Source: Psychromonas sp. SP041 (GTDB lineage: Bacteria > Pseudomonadota > Gammaproteobacteria > Enterobacterales > Psychromonadaceae). From it: a stretch of DNA of 59,090 bases. Positions 28,637-35,651 of the stretch are shown here, piece by piece. Position 1 is the stretch's first letter; every line of letters begins with the position of its first letter. The DNA lies in the NCBI RefSeq assembly GCF_000470315.2, contig NZ_CBRF02000031.1, positions 1-59,090 on the forward strand. The letters run 5' to 3'. The translations under genes were made by a program, and so were the position numbers. Below the pieces are notes generated by a model. That model was not told the DNA's origin. It was given only the letters and a program-made list of their open reading frames with translations, and ran no database searches.

Positions 28637-29353
28637 TTAAGCCTTACGACGAGACGCCCCAGCAAAACCTAACAACGCTAAACCAAAAACAGCTAGTGTT
28701 GAAGGCTCAGGAACAGAAACGGTTGCATAATCAAAATTTAAATTACTGATAGCACCTGAACCATTAAGGTTTATTTCTAACGAGTAAACACCTGCTACAT
28801 CAAACAATAAACGATCCCAAGTATTATTACCGCCAGTACCCGGAGTGAAAAAAGTACCTGCACTAATTTCATCGCCATTTACATCGTATAAATTAATCTC
28901 ATTATGATCAGTTGCTTCTTCAGACTCAATATCAAAGAAATCAATACTGTTTAACGTAATAGCTTCAGAAAAGTCAATTGTAAAATATCCCGCAGGACGA
29001 TTACCTTCGTCATCTGGATTTGTACAAGTTAATGCATCACAAGTAGTAGGGTTTTCATGGATAACTAAAATATTACCTGGATTTGAAGTGCCCAAACTTG
29101 GATTATTAATATTCGTAAAAGGCGATTCTAAATCACTATCTTGAGTATTCGTTAGGCTACTGTCAAAAACAACAGCTAGATTGCTTTCATTTTGAAAAGC
29201 ATTAGTACCATTAAAAGTAATGCCATAATCAGCAAAGTACTCGTCATCGACAATCGTTCCGTTATCTAAACCGTCAAAAGAAATGGTAGTAGCAGATGCT
29301 AATGGCACCATTGCTGTTGAGGCAGCTAATACAATCCAGTGTTTTAATTTCAT
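28637..29353 (-). CDS. PEP-CTERM sorting-domain protein
   Basis: The 238-residue secreted protein has a signal peptide (MKLKHWIVLAASTAMVPLAS ending at ATT), a beta-rich central part (TISFDGLDNGTIVDDEYFAD, FTIDFSEAITLNSIDFFDIE) and a canonical C-terminal PEP-CTERM: VPEPST, hydrophobic LAVFGLALLGFAG, then ASRRKA. It is handled by an exosortase encoded elsewhere and is probably a cell-surface or extracellular-matrix protein. The two cysteines in TTCDALTCTNP may form a disulfide. It has its own terminator. Confidence 0.88.
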   Translation of the reverse strand: MKLKHWIVLAASTAMVPLASATTISFDGLDNGTIVDDEYFADYGITFNGTNAFQNESNLAVVFDSSLTNTQDSDLESPFTNINNPSLGTSNPGNILVIHENPTTCDALTCTNPDDEGNRPAGYFTIDFSEAITLNSIDFFDIESEEATDHNEINLYDVNGDEISAGTFFTPGTGGNNTWDRLLFDVAGVYSLEINLNGSGAISNLNFDYATVSVPEPSTLAVFGLALLGFAGASRRKA

Positions 29354-29556
29354 AATTGTTCCTTAATTTATAATATTAACTTAGCTCACGGAAAGTGAAT
29401 GGTTAATAAAGAGCATATAATTACAACGAATAATAAAAAATAAAAATGACCAAACATCAGCTTAATCGTTGATAACACACATTATATCATCTATTTATCT
29501 AGTCAAATATAAGTCATTAAAGCATATTTCGTAAACCTTTCTGAACTATCTACTCA

Positions 29557-30870
29557 TTAAGTATACAAACGTTTCGCTTTGAGTAATGCCCCAAAGACAA
29601 CAGAGCTAAATGCGTCTGCAACGGTGATTGACACTGAAGGGTAACGATCACTTAAAGCTTGTTGCACCAATGGAGATAATCCCATCCCTCCCGTTAAATA
29701 AATGATTTCAGGAATTCTCTGTGCCTGCTCAATTGCATCATCAATCATCACAAACATTTTATCTAACCAATTCACCATTGTTTCAGATACTTGTGGACGT
29801 TGAATATTCAGTTCTAGCTCACTTTCGACGAAGGATAGAGACAATTCAGCTTTATCATTGTCACTTAAATTGATTTTAGCGAGCTCAATCGAATGCATTA
29901 ACTGGTGTGTTAACCTTTCCGTTTGTACTTGTTGTAAGCGCATTAACGGTATTGGGTTTTCACTTTCGTTAATATATTCGGTAATCGACTTACTGCGAGC
30001 AGGCGAATAAAAATCACTCATTAATGGAATGTTATCAATGTCATAAACACCAGAAAACAACATATTAGGAATCGCTCTTCCCTTGTTAGTACGCGTACCT
30101 CTTCCAAATAAAGGAGAAACAATGCCGCTGGCTAATAACTTATCGCAAACAATCCCACCTTGGCGGATCCCTACTGTTGAATAGATATCAGCAGTACGGT
30201 CAAGTTTCTCTGCATTTTCTTGGCTTAACATACAGAAAGTAACATCTGACGTACCGCCACCTAAATCCACAACCATCGCATCGGTTGCTTTTTCGATATT
30301 CTGTTCAAAGTGATAGGCTGCGGCAAGCGGCTCATGGATAAACTCAACATCAGTAAATCCTACTTTATTAGCGGCACGCAACATTAATGCTTCAGCTTGT
30401 TTATTGCCTAATTCACCCATAGTGGAATGATAGTTAACTGGGCGTGCAATCACCGCTTTAGTAATAACAATAGAAAGTTGTTTCTCTGCACATTTCTTTA
30501 AATACGAAAGAAAACGAACCACTAGCTTTTCAAAGCTATCTAACAAGCGTTTAGGAATTTTTGCCCCTAAAAAGTTTTTAGGGCTATTAACATAACGACC
30601 TTCATGCGGTGTTTGTAAAAAAGCATTAAAGCCTTGTTCACCAAATAAAATCTCACCCGCTGCTAACATATCGTTTAAAGTTTGTTCATTTGCTTTAGCA
30701 TCATGGCTATCGTCACCTGACTCGTCATGAGCCAAGTAAATAGCAGAGCGTATTTTATAAGGGTTTTCGCTGTTCTCATCTACAACAATCAGTGTTGGTA
30801 AGTCATTAACAAGCGCTGCTACAGCACAATTACTCGTACCAAAATCAATGCCAATAAAATCAGTTGTCAT
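29557..30870 (-). CDS. yegD: YegD-type Hsp70-family protein
   Basis: The 437-residue protein matches E. coli YegD, a DnaK-like ATPase without the C-terminal substrate-binding lid. Nucleotide-binding motifs: FIGIDFGTSNCAVAAL (phosphate 1), AVIARPVNYHS, FIHEPLAAAYHFEQ, AMVVDLGGGTSDVTFCML (phosphate 2), and IIYLTGGMGLSPLVQQAL (adenosine). A chaperone or regulatory role is possible but not defined. It is monocistronic and divergent from nasT. Confidence 0.9.
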   Translation of the reverse strand: MTTDFIGIDFGTSNCAVAALVNDLPTLIVVDENSENPYKIRSAIYLAHDESGDDSHDAKANEQTLNDMLAAGEILFGEQGFNAFLQTPHEGRYVNSPKNFLGAKIPKRLLDSFEKLVVRFLSYLKKCAEKQLSIVITKAVIARPVNYHSTMGELGNKQAEALMLRAANKVGFTDVEFIHEPLAAAYHFEQNIEKATDAMVVDLGGGTSDVTFCMLSQENAEKLDRTADIYSTVGIRQGGIVCDKLLASGIVSPLFGRGTRTNKGRAIPNMLFSGVYDIDNIPLMSDFYSPARSKSITEYINESENPIPLMRLQQVQTERLTHQLMHSIELAKINLSDNDKAELSLSFVESELELNIQRPQVSETMVNWLDKMFVMIDDAIEQAQRIPEIIYLTGGMGLSPLVQQALSDRYPSVSITVADAFSSVVFGALLKAKRLYT

Positions 30871-31044: not shown

Positions 31045-31099
31045 ATATTGCACCTGTTCAGTGCGTCATCGCCATTGATTTACAGCATTGGTGCAATAT
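31045..31099. promoter_or_regulatory. NtrC-like binding sites upstream of nasT
   Basis: TGCACCTGTTCAGTGCG (31049-31065) has the GCAC-N7-GTGC layout of NtrC sites. GCATTGGTGCA (31085-31095) offers a second half-site. ATATTGCACC (31045-31054) and GGTGCAATAT (31090-31099) are also an exact inverted repeat. They lie about 75-140 bp upstream of the sigma-54 promoter, as expected for an enhancer. Confidence 0.55.
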
Positions 31100-31171: not shown

Positions 31172-31187
31172 TGGCATTCAATGTGCT
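31172..31187 (+). promoter_or_regulatory. Candidate sigma-54 promoter of nasT
   Basis: TGGCATTCAATGTGCT keeps TGGCA at -24 and TGC at -12 with the correct spacing (GG-N10-GC). It is 48 bp before the nasT start. Confidence 0.65.
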
Positions 31188-31234: not shown

Positions 31235-31927
31235 ATGGATGTTGATCAATCGTTAATTGAGCAAGGAGTCACCATAGTGGGTGTAATACAAGATGAGCAA
31301 TTTAAAAGTAAACAGAAGAACTCTGTATTACTTGTTGAAGAGGTAAAGACGATTGAATTTATCATTGATGGTAAAAAAGACAACAATCAGTATCAAAACA
31401 CCTCATTAAAACAATCTCTTATCGATCTTAACTATAACGTCATTCATTGTGTCAGTAATTCTGCTTTATTATCTAAACAATGTTTACAGCATCTTCCAGA
31501 CATTTTAATCATCAATACAAATGAGCCTTCTGCTGAAATATTGAAAGAAATAAGCAACATTAATAAATTAACGCCTTTACCTGTTTTAGTGTTTGCAACA
31601 CAAGAAACACCCTCTTTAATTAAATCATCAATCCAAGCGGGTGTAAGCGCCTATATTGTTAATGATATTCAACCTAGCCGTTTAAATAGTTTGATCACGG
31701 TTGCTTGTGAGCGATTTAAAGAACATCAATTATTAGTTCAAGAATTACAACGCACAAAAAATCAATTGGCAGATCGTAAAATTGTTGAAAGAGCAAAAGG
31801 TTATATCATGCAACAACGAAAAATGACCGAACAAGAAGCCTTCACCTTACTAAGAAAAATGGCGATGAATAATGGGCAAACATTAGCCGAGGTTTCAAAT
31901 AATATCATCACTGTTTTTACTCATTAA
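31235..31927 (+). CDS. nasT: NasT-like ANTAR-domain antitermination regulator
   Basis: The 230-residue protein ends in an ANTAR RNA-binding domain (RKIVERAKGYIMQQRKMTEQ, then EAFTLLRKMAMNNGQTLAEV; about 180-225) preceded by a receiver-like domain. NasT binds paired hexaloop hairpins in leader RNAs and prevents termination. The receiver looks degenerate: the position of the usual phospho-acceptor aspartate is Asn in DILIINTNEPS, and the early acidic pair is reduced (LLVEEVKT). It has about 30 extra N-terminal residues compared with usual NasT. Its target RNA lies directly downstream before nrtA. No NasS-like sensor gene is adjacent. Confidence 0.88.
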   Translation: MDVDQSLIEQGVTIVGVIQDEQFKSKQKNSVLLVEEVKTIEFIIDGKKDNNQYQNTSLKQSLIDLNYNVIHCVSNSALLSKQCLQHLPDILIINTNEPSAEILKEISNINKLTPLPVLVFATQETPSLIKSSIQAGVSAYIVNDIQPSRLNSLITVACERFKEHQLLVQELQRTKNQLADRKIVERAKGYIMQQRKMTEQEAFTLLRKMAMNNGQTLAEVSNNIITVFTH

Positions 31928-32031
31928 AAGACAATATCAAAGCGAATTATCAAAACCAATAAGCATCAGTTAATAGAGTCGTTAAACGCATAAAAGAAAA
32001 CAGATAAAAAATAAGAAGTAGAAATAAAAAG

Positions 32032-32116
32032 TTTTATTATCAACGGCGATAATAAAATAAAAATTAATTAAGCTTAAACAATGGCGTTTAAGCAGTTTAA
32101 AAGAGCAATGGCGCTC
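32032..32116 (+). promoter_or_regulatory. ANTAR-type leader RNA: three hexaloop hairpins
   Basis: Three stem-loops precede nrtA. First: TTTTATTATC/GATAATAAAA, perfect 10-bp stem, loop AACGGC (32032-32057). Second: GCTTAAAC/GTTTAAGC, perfect 8-bp stem, loop AATGGC (32072-32093). Third: GAGC/GCTC, loop AATGGC (32103-32116). All three loops have A at position 1 and G at position 4, the ANTAR-recognised pattern. The third shares GCGCTC with the terminator's left arm, so the two structures exclude each other. Known ANTAR targets usually have two hairpins; here there are three. Confidence 0.85.
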
Positions 32117-32160
32117 ATTAACCTCCTTGTAATAAGGACGTTAATGAGCGCTTTTTTTTT
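32111..32160 (+). terminator. Leader terminator of the nrt operon
   Basis: GCGCTCATTAAC pairs perfectly with GTTAATGAGCGC; CCTT/AAGG extends the stem inside; nine T follow. It lies 34 bp before the nrtA start, where it acts as the regulated terminator of the ANTAR leader. Confidence 0.93.
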
Positions 32161-32194
32161 GCATCAAAATAACCAAAATAAAAGGATTTATATA

Positions 32195-33580
32195 ATGAGT
32201 TGGATTAAACCAGTCAAATTTGTCGCTAAAAAACTGGCACTAAGCATCGCAATATCAGCAACCGTGATCTCTTTTGCACAAGCCGAAAAGTTAGGCTATC
32301 CAGAAAAAGAAGAATTAAAATTTGGCTTTATTAAATTAACCGATATGGCACCGATCGCCATCGCTTATGAAAATGGTTATTTTGAAGACGAAGGTTTATA
32401 CGTCACGATTGAAGCACAAGCTAACTGGAAAGTGTTACTCAATGGTTTAATTGATGGCACGCTAGATGGTGCACACATGTTAGCGGGACAACCGATTGCA
32501 GCAACAATGGGCTTTGGTACAAAAGCCCATATCATTACGCCTTTTTCAATGGATTTAAATGGTAATGCGATTACTGTTTCTAATGAAATTTGGAAACAGA
32601 TGAAACCTAATATTCCTAAACAAGCAGATGGATGGCCAGTACATCCAATCAAAGCGGATGCGTTAAAGCCTGTTGTCGAGTCTTATAAAGCACAAGGTAA
32701 ACCATTCAATCTAGGCATGGTATTCCCTGTATCAACACATAACTATGAATTACGTTATTGGTTAGCAGCTGGTGACATTCACCCAGGATTTTACGCACCA
32801 CATAAAGGTGATACGAGCGGTCATATCGATGGCGATGCTATCTTATCTGTTACGCCTCCACCGCAAATGCCATCAACATTAGAAGCAGGCACTATCTACG
32901 GTTATTCCGTAGGTGAACCATGGAACCAACAAGCTGTATTTAAAGGCATCGGTGTACCTGTTGTGACTGATTACGAAATATGGAAAAACAATCCAGAGAA
33001 AGTATTTGGTTTAACTGCTGAATTTGCTGAAAAATACCCGAACACAACTATTCGTTTAACACGCGCATTAATTCGTGCCGCTATGTGGTTAGACGAAAAA
33101 GATAATGCAAACCGCCCTGCTGCAGTGAAGATTTTATCGCAATCTAACTACGTTGGTGCCGATTATGAAGTCATTGCAAACAGTATGACGGGAACATTTG
33201 AATACGAAAAAGGCGACAAACGAGATGTCCCTGATTTCAATGTATTCTTTAGACACAACGCAACTTACCCATACTACTCAGATGCCATTTGGTATTTAAC
33301 GCAAATGCGTCGTTGGGGTCAAATTTCAGAAGCTAAATCAGATGAATGGTACAAAGACTTAGCGAAGAAAGTTTACCGTCCAGACATTTACCAAATGGCG
33401 GCTCAATCATTAATTGATGAAAAACTAGCTGATGCTAAAGACTTCCCAGACTTTTCGACTGAAAAAGGCTTTAGAGCACCACAAACGCACTTTATTGATG
33501 ACTTAGTTTATGACGGTAACACACCAAACGCTTACATAGACTCTTTCAAAATTGGACTTAAAAAAGATGACAAAATTTAA
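32195..33580 (+). CDS. nrtA: Nitrate-type ABC transporter substrate-binding protein
   Basis: The 461-residue protein has a Sec signal peptide ([18 protein letters not shown]) and matches NrtA/CmpA-type binding proteins: [80 protein letters not shown]. The ligand is nitrate or nitrite by family and context; cyanate or bicarbonate relatives exist. Start at 32195 follows AAAGGA; the frame could open at 32081, but that ATG lies in a leader-hairpin loop. Controlled by the upstream terminator/ANTAR leader. Confidence 0.9.
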
Positions 33581-33706: not shown

Positions 33707-34702
33707 ATGACAACCAGCTCACTTATCAATAAATTAGAACTTTCAGCAATAACCAGCCAAAAGCTACAAGGCTGGTTTAAATCAATCAGTAAATTATTGG
33801 TATTGCCTTTAATAGGCATCATGATCTTTCTGTTCTTATGGAGTGTTGCCGCTAAAAATATCCATACGTCTTTAGGTGATTTTCCAGGGCCGAATGCTGT
33901 ATTCCAACAGTTTGATTCTCTTTATGATGAACATACAGCAGAAAGAGCAAAAGCTGAAAAATTCTATCAACGTCAAGACATACGTAATGAAGCGCGATTA
34001 GCTGCCGATCCTACTTATGTTGTAAAAATCAGAAACTATACCGGTAAAGAAACCTTTCTAGACCAAATTGTCACGAGCTTAATCACTGTTACCAGTGGTT
34101 TTTTATTAGCGGCGATCATCGCGATTCCATTAGGGATTGCAATGGGGTTAAGTAAAAACCTCAACTCAGCCGTCAATCCAATTATTCAGATATTCAAACC
34201 TGTTTCACCATTGGCATGGTTACCTTTAGTGACAATGGTAGTGAGTGCACTTTATGTTTCTGACGATCCTTTAGTCTCTAAATCATTTGTTAACTCATTA
34301 TTAACAGTGACACTTTGTAGTTTATGGCCAATGGTCATCAACACCTCAATTGGTGTTTCATCGCTAGAACAAGACTTAAAAAATGTCAGCCGCGTGTTAC
34401 GTTTACCGCTGTTCACACACATTAAAAAAATTGTACTACCTGCCTCTGTACCGATGATATTCACTGGTATGCGTTTATCTTTTGGCGTCGCATGGATGGT
34501 ATTAATTGCCGCAGAAATGTTGGCACAAAATCCTGGACTGGGAAAATTTGTATGGGATGAATTTCAAAATGGGAGTTCTGATTCTTTAGCACGCATCATG
34601 GCGGCAGTTATTGTGATTGGTTTTATCGGATTCGTACTTGATAGAGGCATGTTGCAACTTCAACGCATGGCATCTTGGGATAAATCAGCAACAACGGTTT
34701 AA
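33707..34702 (+). CDS. nrtB: Nitrate-type ABC transporter permease
   Basis: The 331-residue protein is an NrtB/SsuC-type permease. A first helix (about 32-48), a long non-membrane segment (LGDFPGPNAVFQQFDSLYDE and following, about 60-115), then five helices: TSGFLLAAIIAIPLGIAMGL, FKPVSPLAWLPLVTMVV, LLTVTLCSLWPMVINTSIGV, the coupling loop VSRVLRLPLFTHIKKIVLPA, and FGVAWMVLIAAEML. The insert between helix 1 and the core fits nitrate permeases. Preceded by AAGGA. Confidence 0.9.
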   Translation: MTTSSLINKLELSAITSQKLQGWFKSISKLLVLPLIGIMIFLFLWSVAAKNIHTSLGDFPGPNAVFQQFDSLYDEHTAERAKAEKFYQRQDIRNEARLAADPTYVVKIRNYTGKETFLDQIVTSLITVTSGFLLAAIIAIPLGIAMGLSKNLNSAVNPIIQIFKPVSPLAWLPLVTMVVSALYVSDDPLVSKSFVNSLLTVTLCSLWPMVINTSIGVSSLEQDLKNVSRVLRLPLFTHIKKIVLPASVPMIFTGMRLSFGVAWMVLIAAEMLAQNPGLGKFVWDEFQNGSSDSLARIMAAVIVIGFIGFVLDRGMLQLQRMASWDKSATTV

Positions 34703-34814: not shown

Positions 34815-35651
34815 ATGAATGTTTTACTTGATATAAGCCATATAGATATGGAATTCCCAACCCCTACGGGTAGTTTTACAGCACTTAAAGATGTTGATTT
34901 AAAAATAAAAAAAGGCGAGTTTGTTTCACTGATTGGCCATTCAGGTTGTGGTAAATCAACGGTATTGAATGTGGTTGCTGGTTTATATCAAGCAACCAAA
35001 GGCGGCGTGATTCTAAGCGGTAAAGAAGTCACTGAACCGGGTCCTGAACGCGCCGTTGTTTTTCAAAATCATTCGTTGTTACCTTGGTTAACAGCTTATC
35101 AAAATGTAGAGTTGGCGGTTGAACAAGTCTTTGGTAAAACAATGAGTAAACCCGCTAAGAAAGATTGGATTGAACATAATCTAAAATTGGTTCACATGGA
35201 CCATGCAATGTACAAACGTCCTAATGAAATATCGGGCGGAATGAAACAACGTGTAGGCATTGCGCGTGCATTAGCAATGCAACCAGAAGTTTTATTAATG
35301 GATGAGCCTTTTGGAGCACTAGATGCGTTAACAAGAGCACACATGCAGGATTCATTAATGGAGATTCAAAATGAGTTGAATAATACCGTTATCATGATCA
35401 CCCATGATGTTGATGAAGCTGTATTGTTATCAGACCGAATTGTCATGATGACGAATGGTCCAAGTGCGACAGTCGGTGAAATTCTAGATGTCGATTTAGA
35501 ACGTCCACGTGACCGATTAAGTTTATCTAAGGATGCACATTACAATCGCTTAAGATCTGATGTGTTAACCTTCTTATATGAAAAACAACGTAAAGTTGAA
35601 AATATTAAGGGTAAAACGATTTCAACCAACGCTTCTATAAAAACGGCCTAG
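34815..35651 (+). CDS. nrtD: Nitrate-type ABC transporter ATP-binding protein
   Basis: The 278-residue ATPase is of the NrtD/CmpD/SsuB type. Walker A GHSGCGKST (about 41-49), Q-loop VVFQNHSLLPWLTAYQNVEL, signature [20 protein letters not shown], Walker B VLLMDEPFGALDALTRAHMQ, and VIMITHDVDEAVLLSDRIVM. It lacks the extra binding-protein-like domain of cyanobacterial NrtC. It completes the nrtABD-type operon. No nitrate reductase gene follows in the window. Confidence 0.9.
   Translation: MNVLLDISHIDMEFPTPTGSFTALKDVDLKIKKGEFVSLIGHSGCGKSTVLNVVAGLYQATKGGVILSGKEVTEPGPERAVVFQNHSLLPWLTAYQNVELAVEQVFGKTMSKPAKKDWIEHNLKLVHMDHAMYKRPNEISGGMKQRVGIARALAMQPEVLLMDEPFGALDALTRAHMQDSLMEIQNELNNTVIMITHDVDEAVLLSDRIVMMTNGPSATVGEILDVDLERPRDRLSLSKDAHYNRLRSDVLTFLYEKQRKVENIKGKTISTNASIKTA

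Follow-up and report, generated by a model that had tools for sequence, protein, structure and literature searches.

The window, a stretch of 59,090 nucleotides of Psychromonas sp. SP041, carries on its plus strand an ANTAR regulator gene (31235..31927) followed by genes for a nitrate-type ABC transporter: an nrtA-like substrate-binding protein (32195..33580; PF13379, 1.9e-93), an nrtB-like permease (33707..34702; TIGR01183, below its cut-off) and an nrtC-like ATPase (34815..35651; TIGR01184, above its cut-off). The nrtA-like protein is probably exported, judging by a signal-like N-terminus read from the sequence by eye. The regulator, whose translation more likely begins at a GTG (31277) preceded by AAGGAG, joins a degenerate receiver domain (Response_reg 25.0 bits, cut-off 30.2) to an ANTAR domain that scores above its cut-off (PF03861, 4.6e-19). 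It matched PDB entries 1s8n, 6wsh and 4akk, its ANTAR domain matching solved-structure chains of EutV and NasR. The nearest named relative found was an uncultured Psychromonas (69% identity). Divergent from this gene, 28637-30870 on the minus strand encodes a protein with a PEP-CTERM-like tail, recognized by eye, and a relative of YegD-type Hsp70.

Two motifs on the plus strand point to nitrogen-responsive transcription: an NtrC-like site, GCACC-N5-AGTGC (31050..31064), agreeing at nine of ten half-site positions, and, 5' of the ANTAR gene, a weak sigma-54-like promoter, TGGCATTCAATGTGCT (31172..31187), agreeing at six of eight scored positions. Both were scored against what we take to be the NtrC and sigma-54 motifs. 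On both strands of the whole window there were two NtrC-like sites of 9/10 and ten of 8/10 or better, and 11 sigma-54-like scores as good as that of the promoter.

Between the ANTAR gene and the nrtABC-like genes lie three hairpins, all on the plus strand, with hexaloops that have A at position 1 and G at position 4 (A1/G4) and are each closed by a C-G pair. HP1 (32031-32058), identified by sequence, folding and covariation, is GUUUUAUUAUC-AACGGC-GAUAAUAAAAU, with ten Watson-Crick pairs and an outer G-U. HP2 (32072-32093), which rests on the same three lines of evidence and corresponds to P1 of the classical motif, is GCUUAAAC-AAUGGC-GUUUAAGC, with 8 bp. HP3 (32103-32116), identified by sequence and folding and corresponding to P2, is GAGC-AAUGGC-GCUC, with only 4 bp. 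An intrinsic terminator stem-loop (32110-32152, plus strand, -26.4 kcal/mol) followed by a U tract completes the leader. Positions 32110-32116 are common to HP3 and the left arm of the terminator, so the two are mutually exclusive. The first-pass annotation had described three A1/G4 hairpins, the first with a long 10-bp stem and the third sharing bases with the terminator, and each element was found where it had placed it.

Folding of 32026-32158 gave a minimum free energy of -45.8 kcal/mol (z -7.4; none of 200 shuffles as good), and the minimum-energy form consisted of HP1, HP2 and the terminator. When the right arm of the terminator was left out, all three hairpins folded as drawn (z -5.0). 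The weakness of HP3 (-5.5 kcal/mol) relative to the terminator (-26.4 kcal/mol) fits the expectation for a default-off switch that needs a protein. In dinucleotide shuffles of the 130 nt 5' of HP3, at least one such hairpin arose in three of 500 and two in none of 500.

The leader thus has the tandem A1/G4 hexaloop hairpins of an ANTAR-target RNA, the last of them overlapping an intrinsic terminator, and its linkers of 13 and 9 nt lie within the range of 2-25 nt given in PMC8164766. It departs from the exact number of two hairpins, having three, as do the leaders of 14 relatives. Two hairpins or dual stem-loops are what the available text of PMC3369931, PMC8934654, PMC7496416, PMC8164766 and PMC5424462 describes, and the portion available of PMC6759348 does not state a hairpin number for ANTAR leaders. 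The phrase 'three hairpin' is absent from the main text of PMC3369931, PMC8934654 and PMC7496416, and among the open-licence matches listed we found no description of a three-hairpin ANTAR leader. PMC3369931 mentions no fewer than 13 attenuators, spread over six units in a single organism, and its tables may include multi-hairpin leaders. Rfam gave no match over the gathering threshold in the whole window; the three matches in 31900-32260 were weak, unrelated and all below gathering.

Conservation and covariation of the leader

Loci for comparison were picked by homology of the ANTAR protein, without regard to hairpins. Within the genus, 10 of 24 genomes, our own included, had a strong match (E < 1e-38; 12 genomes at 1e-3), and eight of the ten had a three-hairpin leader; in G001, counted among the two without one, the match lay close to a contig end. 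Of the 246 genomes of family f7 that were searched, 88 matched at 1e-20, nine of these (E 5e-54 or better) grouped with the window's protein, and seven of the nine had a three-hairpin leader. HP1 was present in every one of these 15 leaders. The ANTAR gene of G185 lies 7 kb off, yet the leader is still found in front of nrtA. In G022 (L021, L083), the ANTAR gene lies directly before nrtA, and neither a hairpin leader nor a terminator was found between them; its ANTAR protein forms a long branch (0.72) in the protein tree. No leader was found in the fetched loci of G413 (L093) and G356 (L094), and no NrtA or NasS match in either genome; in both, the clade ANTAR gene is an orphan regulator. In G394 (L095:2226-2368), there are possibly four A1/G4 hairpins, with two similar TGGC-AGCGWT-GCCA hairpins between HP1 and HP3; the candidate fourth has the loop AGCGTT.

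The 15 HP1 hairpins aligned without gaps, with 85.5% of stem cells paired and 14.5% unpaired. Nine of the 11 stem pairs had changed on both sides and the two innermost were invariant. There were 23 doubly changed cells compared with 8.8 in shuffles (none of 500 as high), and in slid registers pairing fell to 63% or less; the shuffles ignore relatedness, which the slid registers keep. HP2 behaved alike, with seven of eight pairs changed on both sides and 25 such cells compared with 8.6 in shuffles, for the 13 leaders that remain when G003 and G497 are left out; HP2 of these two, with an internal loop and a bulge, respectively, has an interrupted stem and was read by eye. An alignment of 11 of the 15 leaders (A1) was not used for counts. 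The HP1 loop was AAYGGC in 13 of 15 leaders, AATGAA in G003 and AGTGTT in G185. Since the finder demanded A1, G4 and a C-G closing pair, the invariance of these features is to some extent a product of the search, but the presence of such a hairpin in every clade leader is not. Together, the shuffles and the covariation rule out a chance origin of HP1. Comparison of relatives' leaders had been set beforehand as the test of the first-pass proposal that HP1 is an additional ANTAR-type site before nrtABC, with an unconserved HP1 and a variable loop as the outcome against it. The proposal came through this comparison with support, since the putative site is kept in all 15 clade leaders with A1/G4 intact and compensatory changes in the stem.

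The finder was also relaxed, so that 3 bp sufficed for the last hairpin and the terminator had to reach -14 kcal/mol, and applied to 51 other ANTAR-gene loci from the order, where it yielded 34 candidates. One upstream hairpin was seen in 16 of them and two or more in none; the remaining 18, many of which are probably something other than ANTAR leaders, had no upstream hairpin. Leaders whose imperfect hairpins show up on folding escaped this count. One locus in the order (L103, G415) had two upstream hairpins before a weak terminator (-10.6 kcal/mol) outside the -14 limit: an inner one, CCTC-AATGTA-GAGG, and, 67 nt upstream of it, an outer TATTC-ATCGCC-GAATA that may be due to chance. Two loci of the same genus, L099 and L107, had one upstream hairpin. 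The wider class contributed matches in 80 of 369 genomes, and 14 of 28 new loci examined gave candidates. Four of these, from three genera (L125, L129, L134 and L140), had two upstream hairpins (0/1000 shuffles each) and are probably independent three-hairpin ANTAR leaders of distant Gammaproteobacteria; L120 may have two as well, with a short middle stem. At L129, L134 and L140, the next reading frame looks NrtA-like.

In a protein tree of 78 rows, from which L047 (G174) was dropped because it had no significant match, the 19 rows of the Psychromonas/f7 clade formed a moderately supported fork (84/83) within a branch of 22 rows that is itself supported (99/97). The other three rows of that branch are L119, with one upstream hairpin, and L122 and L127, in which no leader was found. 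Since the distant three-hairpin rows fall outside the 22-row branch, three-hairpin leaders probably arose more than once.

The promoter motifs gain from the same comparison. In the genus, a sigma-54-like site stands 706-859 nt before HP1, 5' of the ANTAR gene, in all eight leaders; an NtrC-like site was found at 9/10 in four of the eight, at 8/10 in two more and not in the other two, and lies 91-122 nt above the sigma-54-like site in six. In all seven f7 leaders, the sigma-54-like site is 31-145 nt before HP1. It is this shared position that makes the sites credible, their individual scores in the genus being weak, and the short distance in f7 suggests that HP1 is part of the nrtA transcript. 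The arrangement suggests that in the genus regulator and transporter share one transcript and that in f7 the leader has its own promoter. NtrC control of nasT has been reported in Paracoccus (PMC5424462).

Inputs to the regulator

The window's protein had been called NasT-like, a description that holds for its domains, receiver-like followed by ANTAR, and needs qualifying for its inputs, as a search of the genome gave no NasS and the receiver has lost its Asp. In a first set of 11 three-hairpin genomes, a NasS query returned exactly one protein each, at the nrtA place, compared with two in each of two control genomes that have NasS (G029 and G241). In our own genome (G000), the query matched NrtA only, the other PF13379 matches scoring 49 bits or less. 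No NasS was found in five further clade genomes, with one NrtA-strength match each in G566, G497 and G394 and none in G413; in G445 (84% complete), the query gave two short pieces on different contigs. Overall, a NasS partner was found in none of the 15 genomes with a three-hairpin leader and in 15 of 16 comparison genomes (331 bits or more), G476 being the exception. The phospho-acceptor column of the receiver holds Asp in none of the 19 clade members, and Asn in the window's protein; elsewhere in the tree Asp is kept in 43 of 54 rows and lost in 11.

With no NasS found and the receiver Asp lost, nitrate sensing through NasS and NasT cannot be carried over unchanged from the known systems, and neither NasS nor Asp phosphorylation can be the switch here. 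The coincidence of both losses in one clade points to a nitrate input other than these. That three hairpins always go with absence of NasS was rejected, as G174 and G476 have two-hairpin leaders and no NasS beside the ANTAR gene (G476 was judged genome-wide, with no NasS-level match, and G174 at the ANTAR locus only). All five distant three-hairpin rows keep the receiver Asp, a second ground for this rejection.

Mechanism and alternatives

We consider it quite probable that the leader is an ANTAR-controlled transcription attenuator of nrtABC with three putative protein-binding hairpins, of which HP1 is a genuine third site. In such an attenuator, presumably transcribed under NtrC and sigma-54 and responsive to nitrate, RNA polymerase would make HP1 first, then HP2 and finally HP3. 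If active ANTAR protein were lacking, the terminator would displace the weak 4-bp HP3, built from the same bases, and transcription would stop before nrtA; ANTAR protein on the A1/G4 loops would hold HP3 and let polymerase pass. HP1 might recruit the protein early, as a second dimer or as one dimer handed from HP1-HP2 to HP2-HP3, and would thereby raise local occupancy before the short HP3/terminator decision. A second dimer and tuning of the response, the two roles named for HP1 in the first-pass annotation, are both conceivable. HP1 may also be dispensable, since leaders with two hairpins seem to be enough in other bacteria.

Antitermination leaders of this type are already known; the third conserved hairpin is a departure from the two-hairpin definition, and the regulator is not a normal NasT. 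The NasS-NasT leaders of Paracoccus denitrificans, as described in PMC5424462, are similar in that a receiver-ANTAR protein is encoded next to the operon, hairpins precede the structural genes, these genes serve nitrate assimilation and an NtrC site lies above nasT. They differ in having two hairpins (HI and HII) where the window has three, and in that NasS, a partner not found in the window's genome, senses nitrate and holds NasT (PMC5424462; PMC3795266 deals with the NasS-NasT complex). The nasF leader of Klebsiella oxytoca shares A1/G4 hexaloops, the C-G closing pair and a second hairpin overlapping the terminator; unlike here, NasR is described as one protein with a nitrate-sensing NIT domain for which two hairpins are enough for full binding (PMC7496416). 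The EutV dual-hexaloop motif shares loop chemistry, mutual exclusion with the terminator and a related ANTAR protein (PDB 6wsh), but is reported to have two hairpins, a phosphorylated receiver that promotes dimerisation and a linker whose lengthening abolishes antitermination (PMC3369931, PMC8934654).

Linkers without an insert measured 3-22 nt across the 15 leaders. In nine of the 15, one linker was 29-84 nt long and foldable (-5.4 to -26.5 kcal/mol), and discounting the inserted fold left 5-25 nt. Compared with 500 shuffles each, eight of these nine were equalled by only 0-15, whereas the insert of G013 folded no better than chance (102/500 as good). In G021, G013 and the f7 genome G394, the insert separates HP1 from HP2; the remaining six f7 leaders have it between HP2 and HP3. 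Since 20 nt added between P1 and P2 abolished EutV antitermination (PMC8934654), the folded inserts suggest that the effective distance between all three hairpins is under selection. The number of ANTAR proteins per leader and the need for two hairpins are questions raised in PMC8934654, and they can be put directly to natural leaders such as these, with three hairpins that covary and linkers bridged by a hairpin.

HP1 could instead be a structural element, a stability hairpin at the 5' end or between cistrons, leaving only HP2-HP3 as the classical dual motif. Its stem is the longest of the three, a promoter 5' of the ANTAR gene would make it intergenic within a single transcript, many leaders of the order have just one upstream hairpin (16/34 candidates) and two hairpins are enough for full NasR binding (PMC7496416). 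Stability alone, however, needs neither the A-N-N-G loop found in 15 of 15 leaders (partly by search design) nor AAYGGC in 13 of them, and the G185 leader stays with nrtA rather than with the ANTAR gene; we consider this reading distinctly improbable. Spacing speaks both for and against a further idea, that HP1-HP2 is the dimer-binding unit and HP3 only an antiterminator fold, with binding acting on polymerase or on HP3 indirectly. In six of the seven f7 leaders (all but G394), HP1 and HP2 are 12-17 nt apart and HP2 and HP3, with the insert, 29-35 nt, a distance at odds with the EutV linker result (PMC8934654). In the genus, the closer pair is HP2-HP3 in seven of eight leaders (3-10 nt), G014 has 9 and 10 nt, and the long gap of G021 and G013 is on the other side; moreover, HP3 has A1/G4 in all 15 leaders (by search design). 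A division of labour of this kind thus seems unlikely.

The losses described above also allow that the clade's ANTAR protein is no longer gated by a signal and gives constitutive read-through, the three sites sensing its dosage and nitrogen control acting only through NtrC and sigma-54. The missing NasS, the loss of the receiver Asp in 19 of 19 members and the NtrC- and sigma-54-like sites upstream are in its favour. Against it, all 15 leaders retain a strong terminator together with the hairpin that competes with it; if the state were simply permissive, the terminator would be left to decay, as may be the case in G022. We give this reading a low but appreciable probability. Returning to a signal-gated attenuator with three binding sites, a more specific version, which we put forward as a rather long shot, is that a NasT descendant that has lost NasS and its phosphorylation site, and that dimerises weakly, uses the three spaced hairpins as a template for cooperative assembly on the nascent leader, nitrate acting through a new input, possibly the NasS-homologous NrtA.

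Other candidate targets and ANTAR loci

A covariance model of the three hairpins, applied in each genome to 150 of the 1300-2390 candidates from a first look, found one site in each of the eight same-genus genomes that built it and none in four other genomes. Our own genome has one other ANTAR gene (L003:7549-8154, on C14), which we take to be AmiR-like, with AmiC-like, amidase-like and urea/branched-chain-type ABC transporter genes as presumed neighbours; the strict finder gave no leader in this 17-kb region. Fifteen stretches with nirB/nasA loci from 13 genomes, one of them (L167) cut by a contig end, were scanned with the same finder, which gave no ANTAR leader overlapping a terminator. One of these loci, L168 in G006, has a lone A1/G4 hairpin with a 9-bp stem. 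In our own genome, the locus on C20 (L164), without an ANTAR leader, combines nirB with a nasA-like reductase of 936 aa and an MFS nitrate-type transporter, the latter two named by eye, and a second nirB is found on C8.
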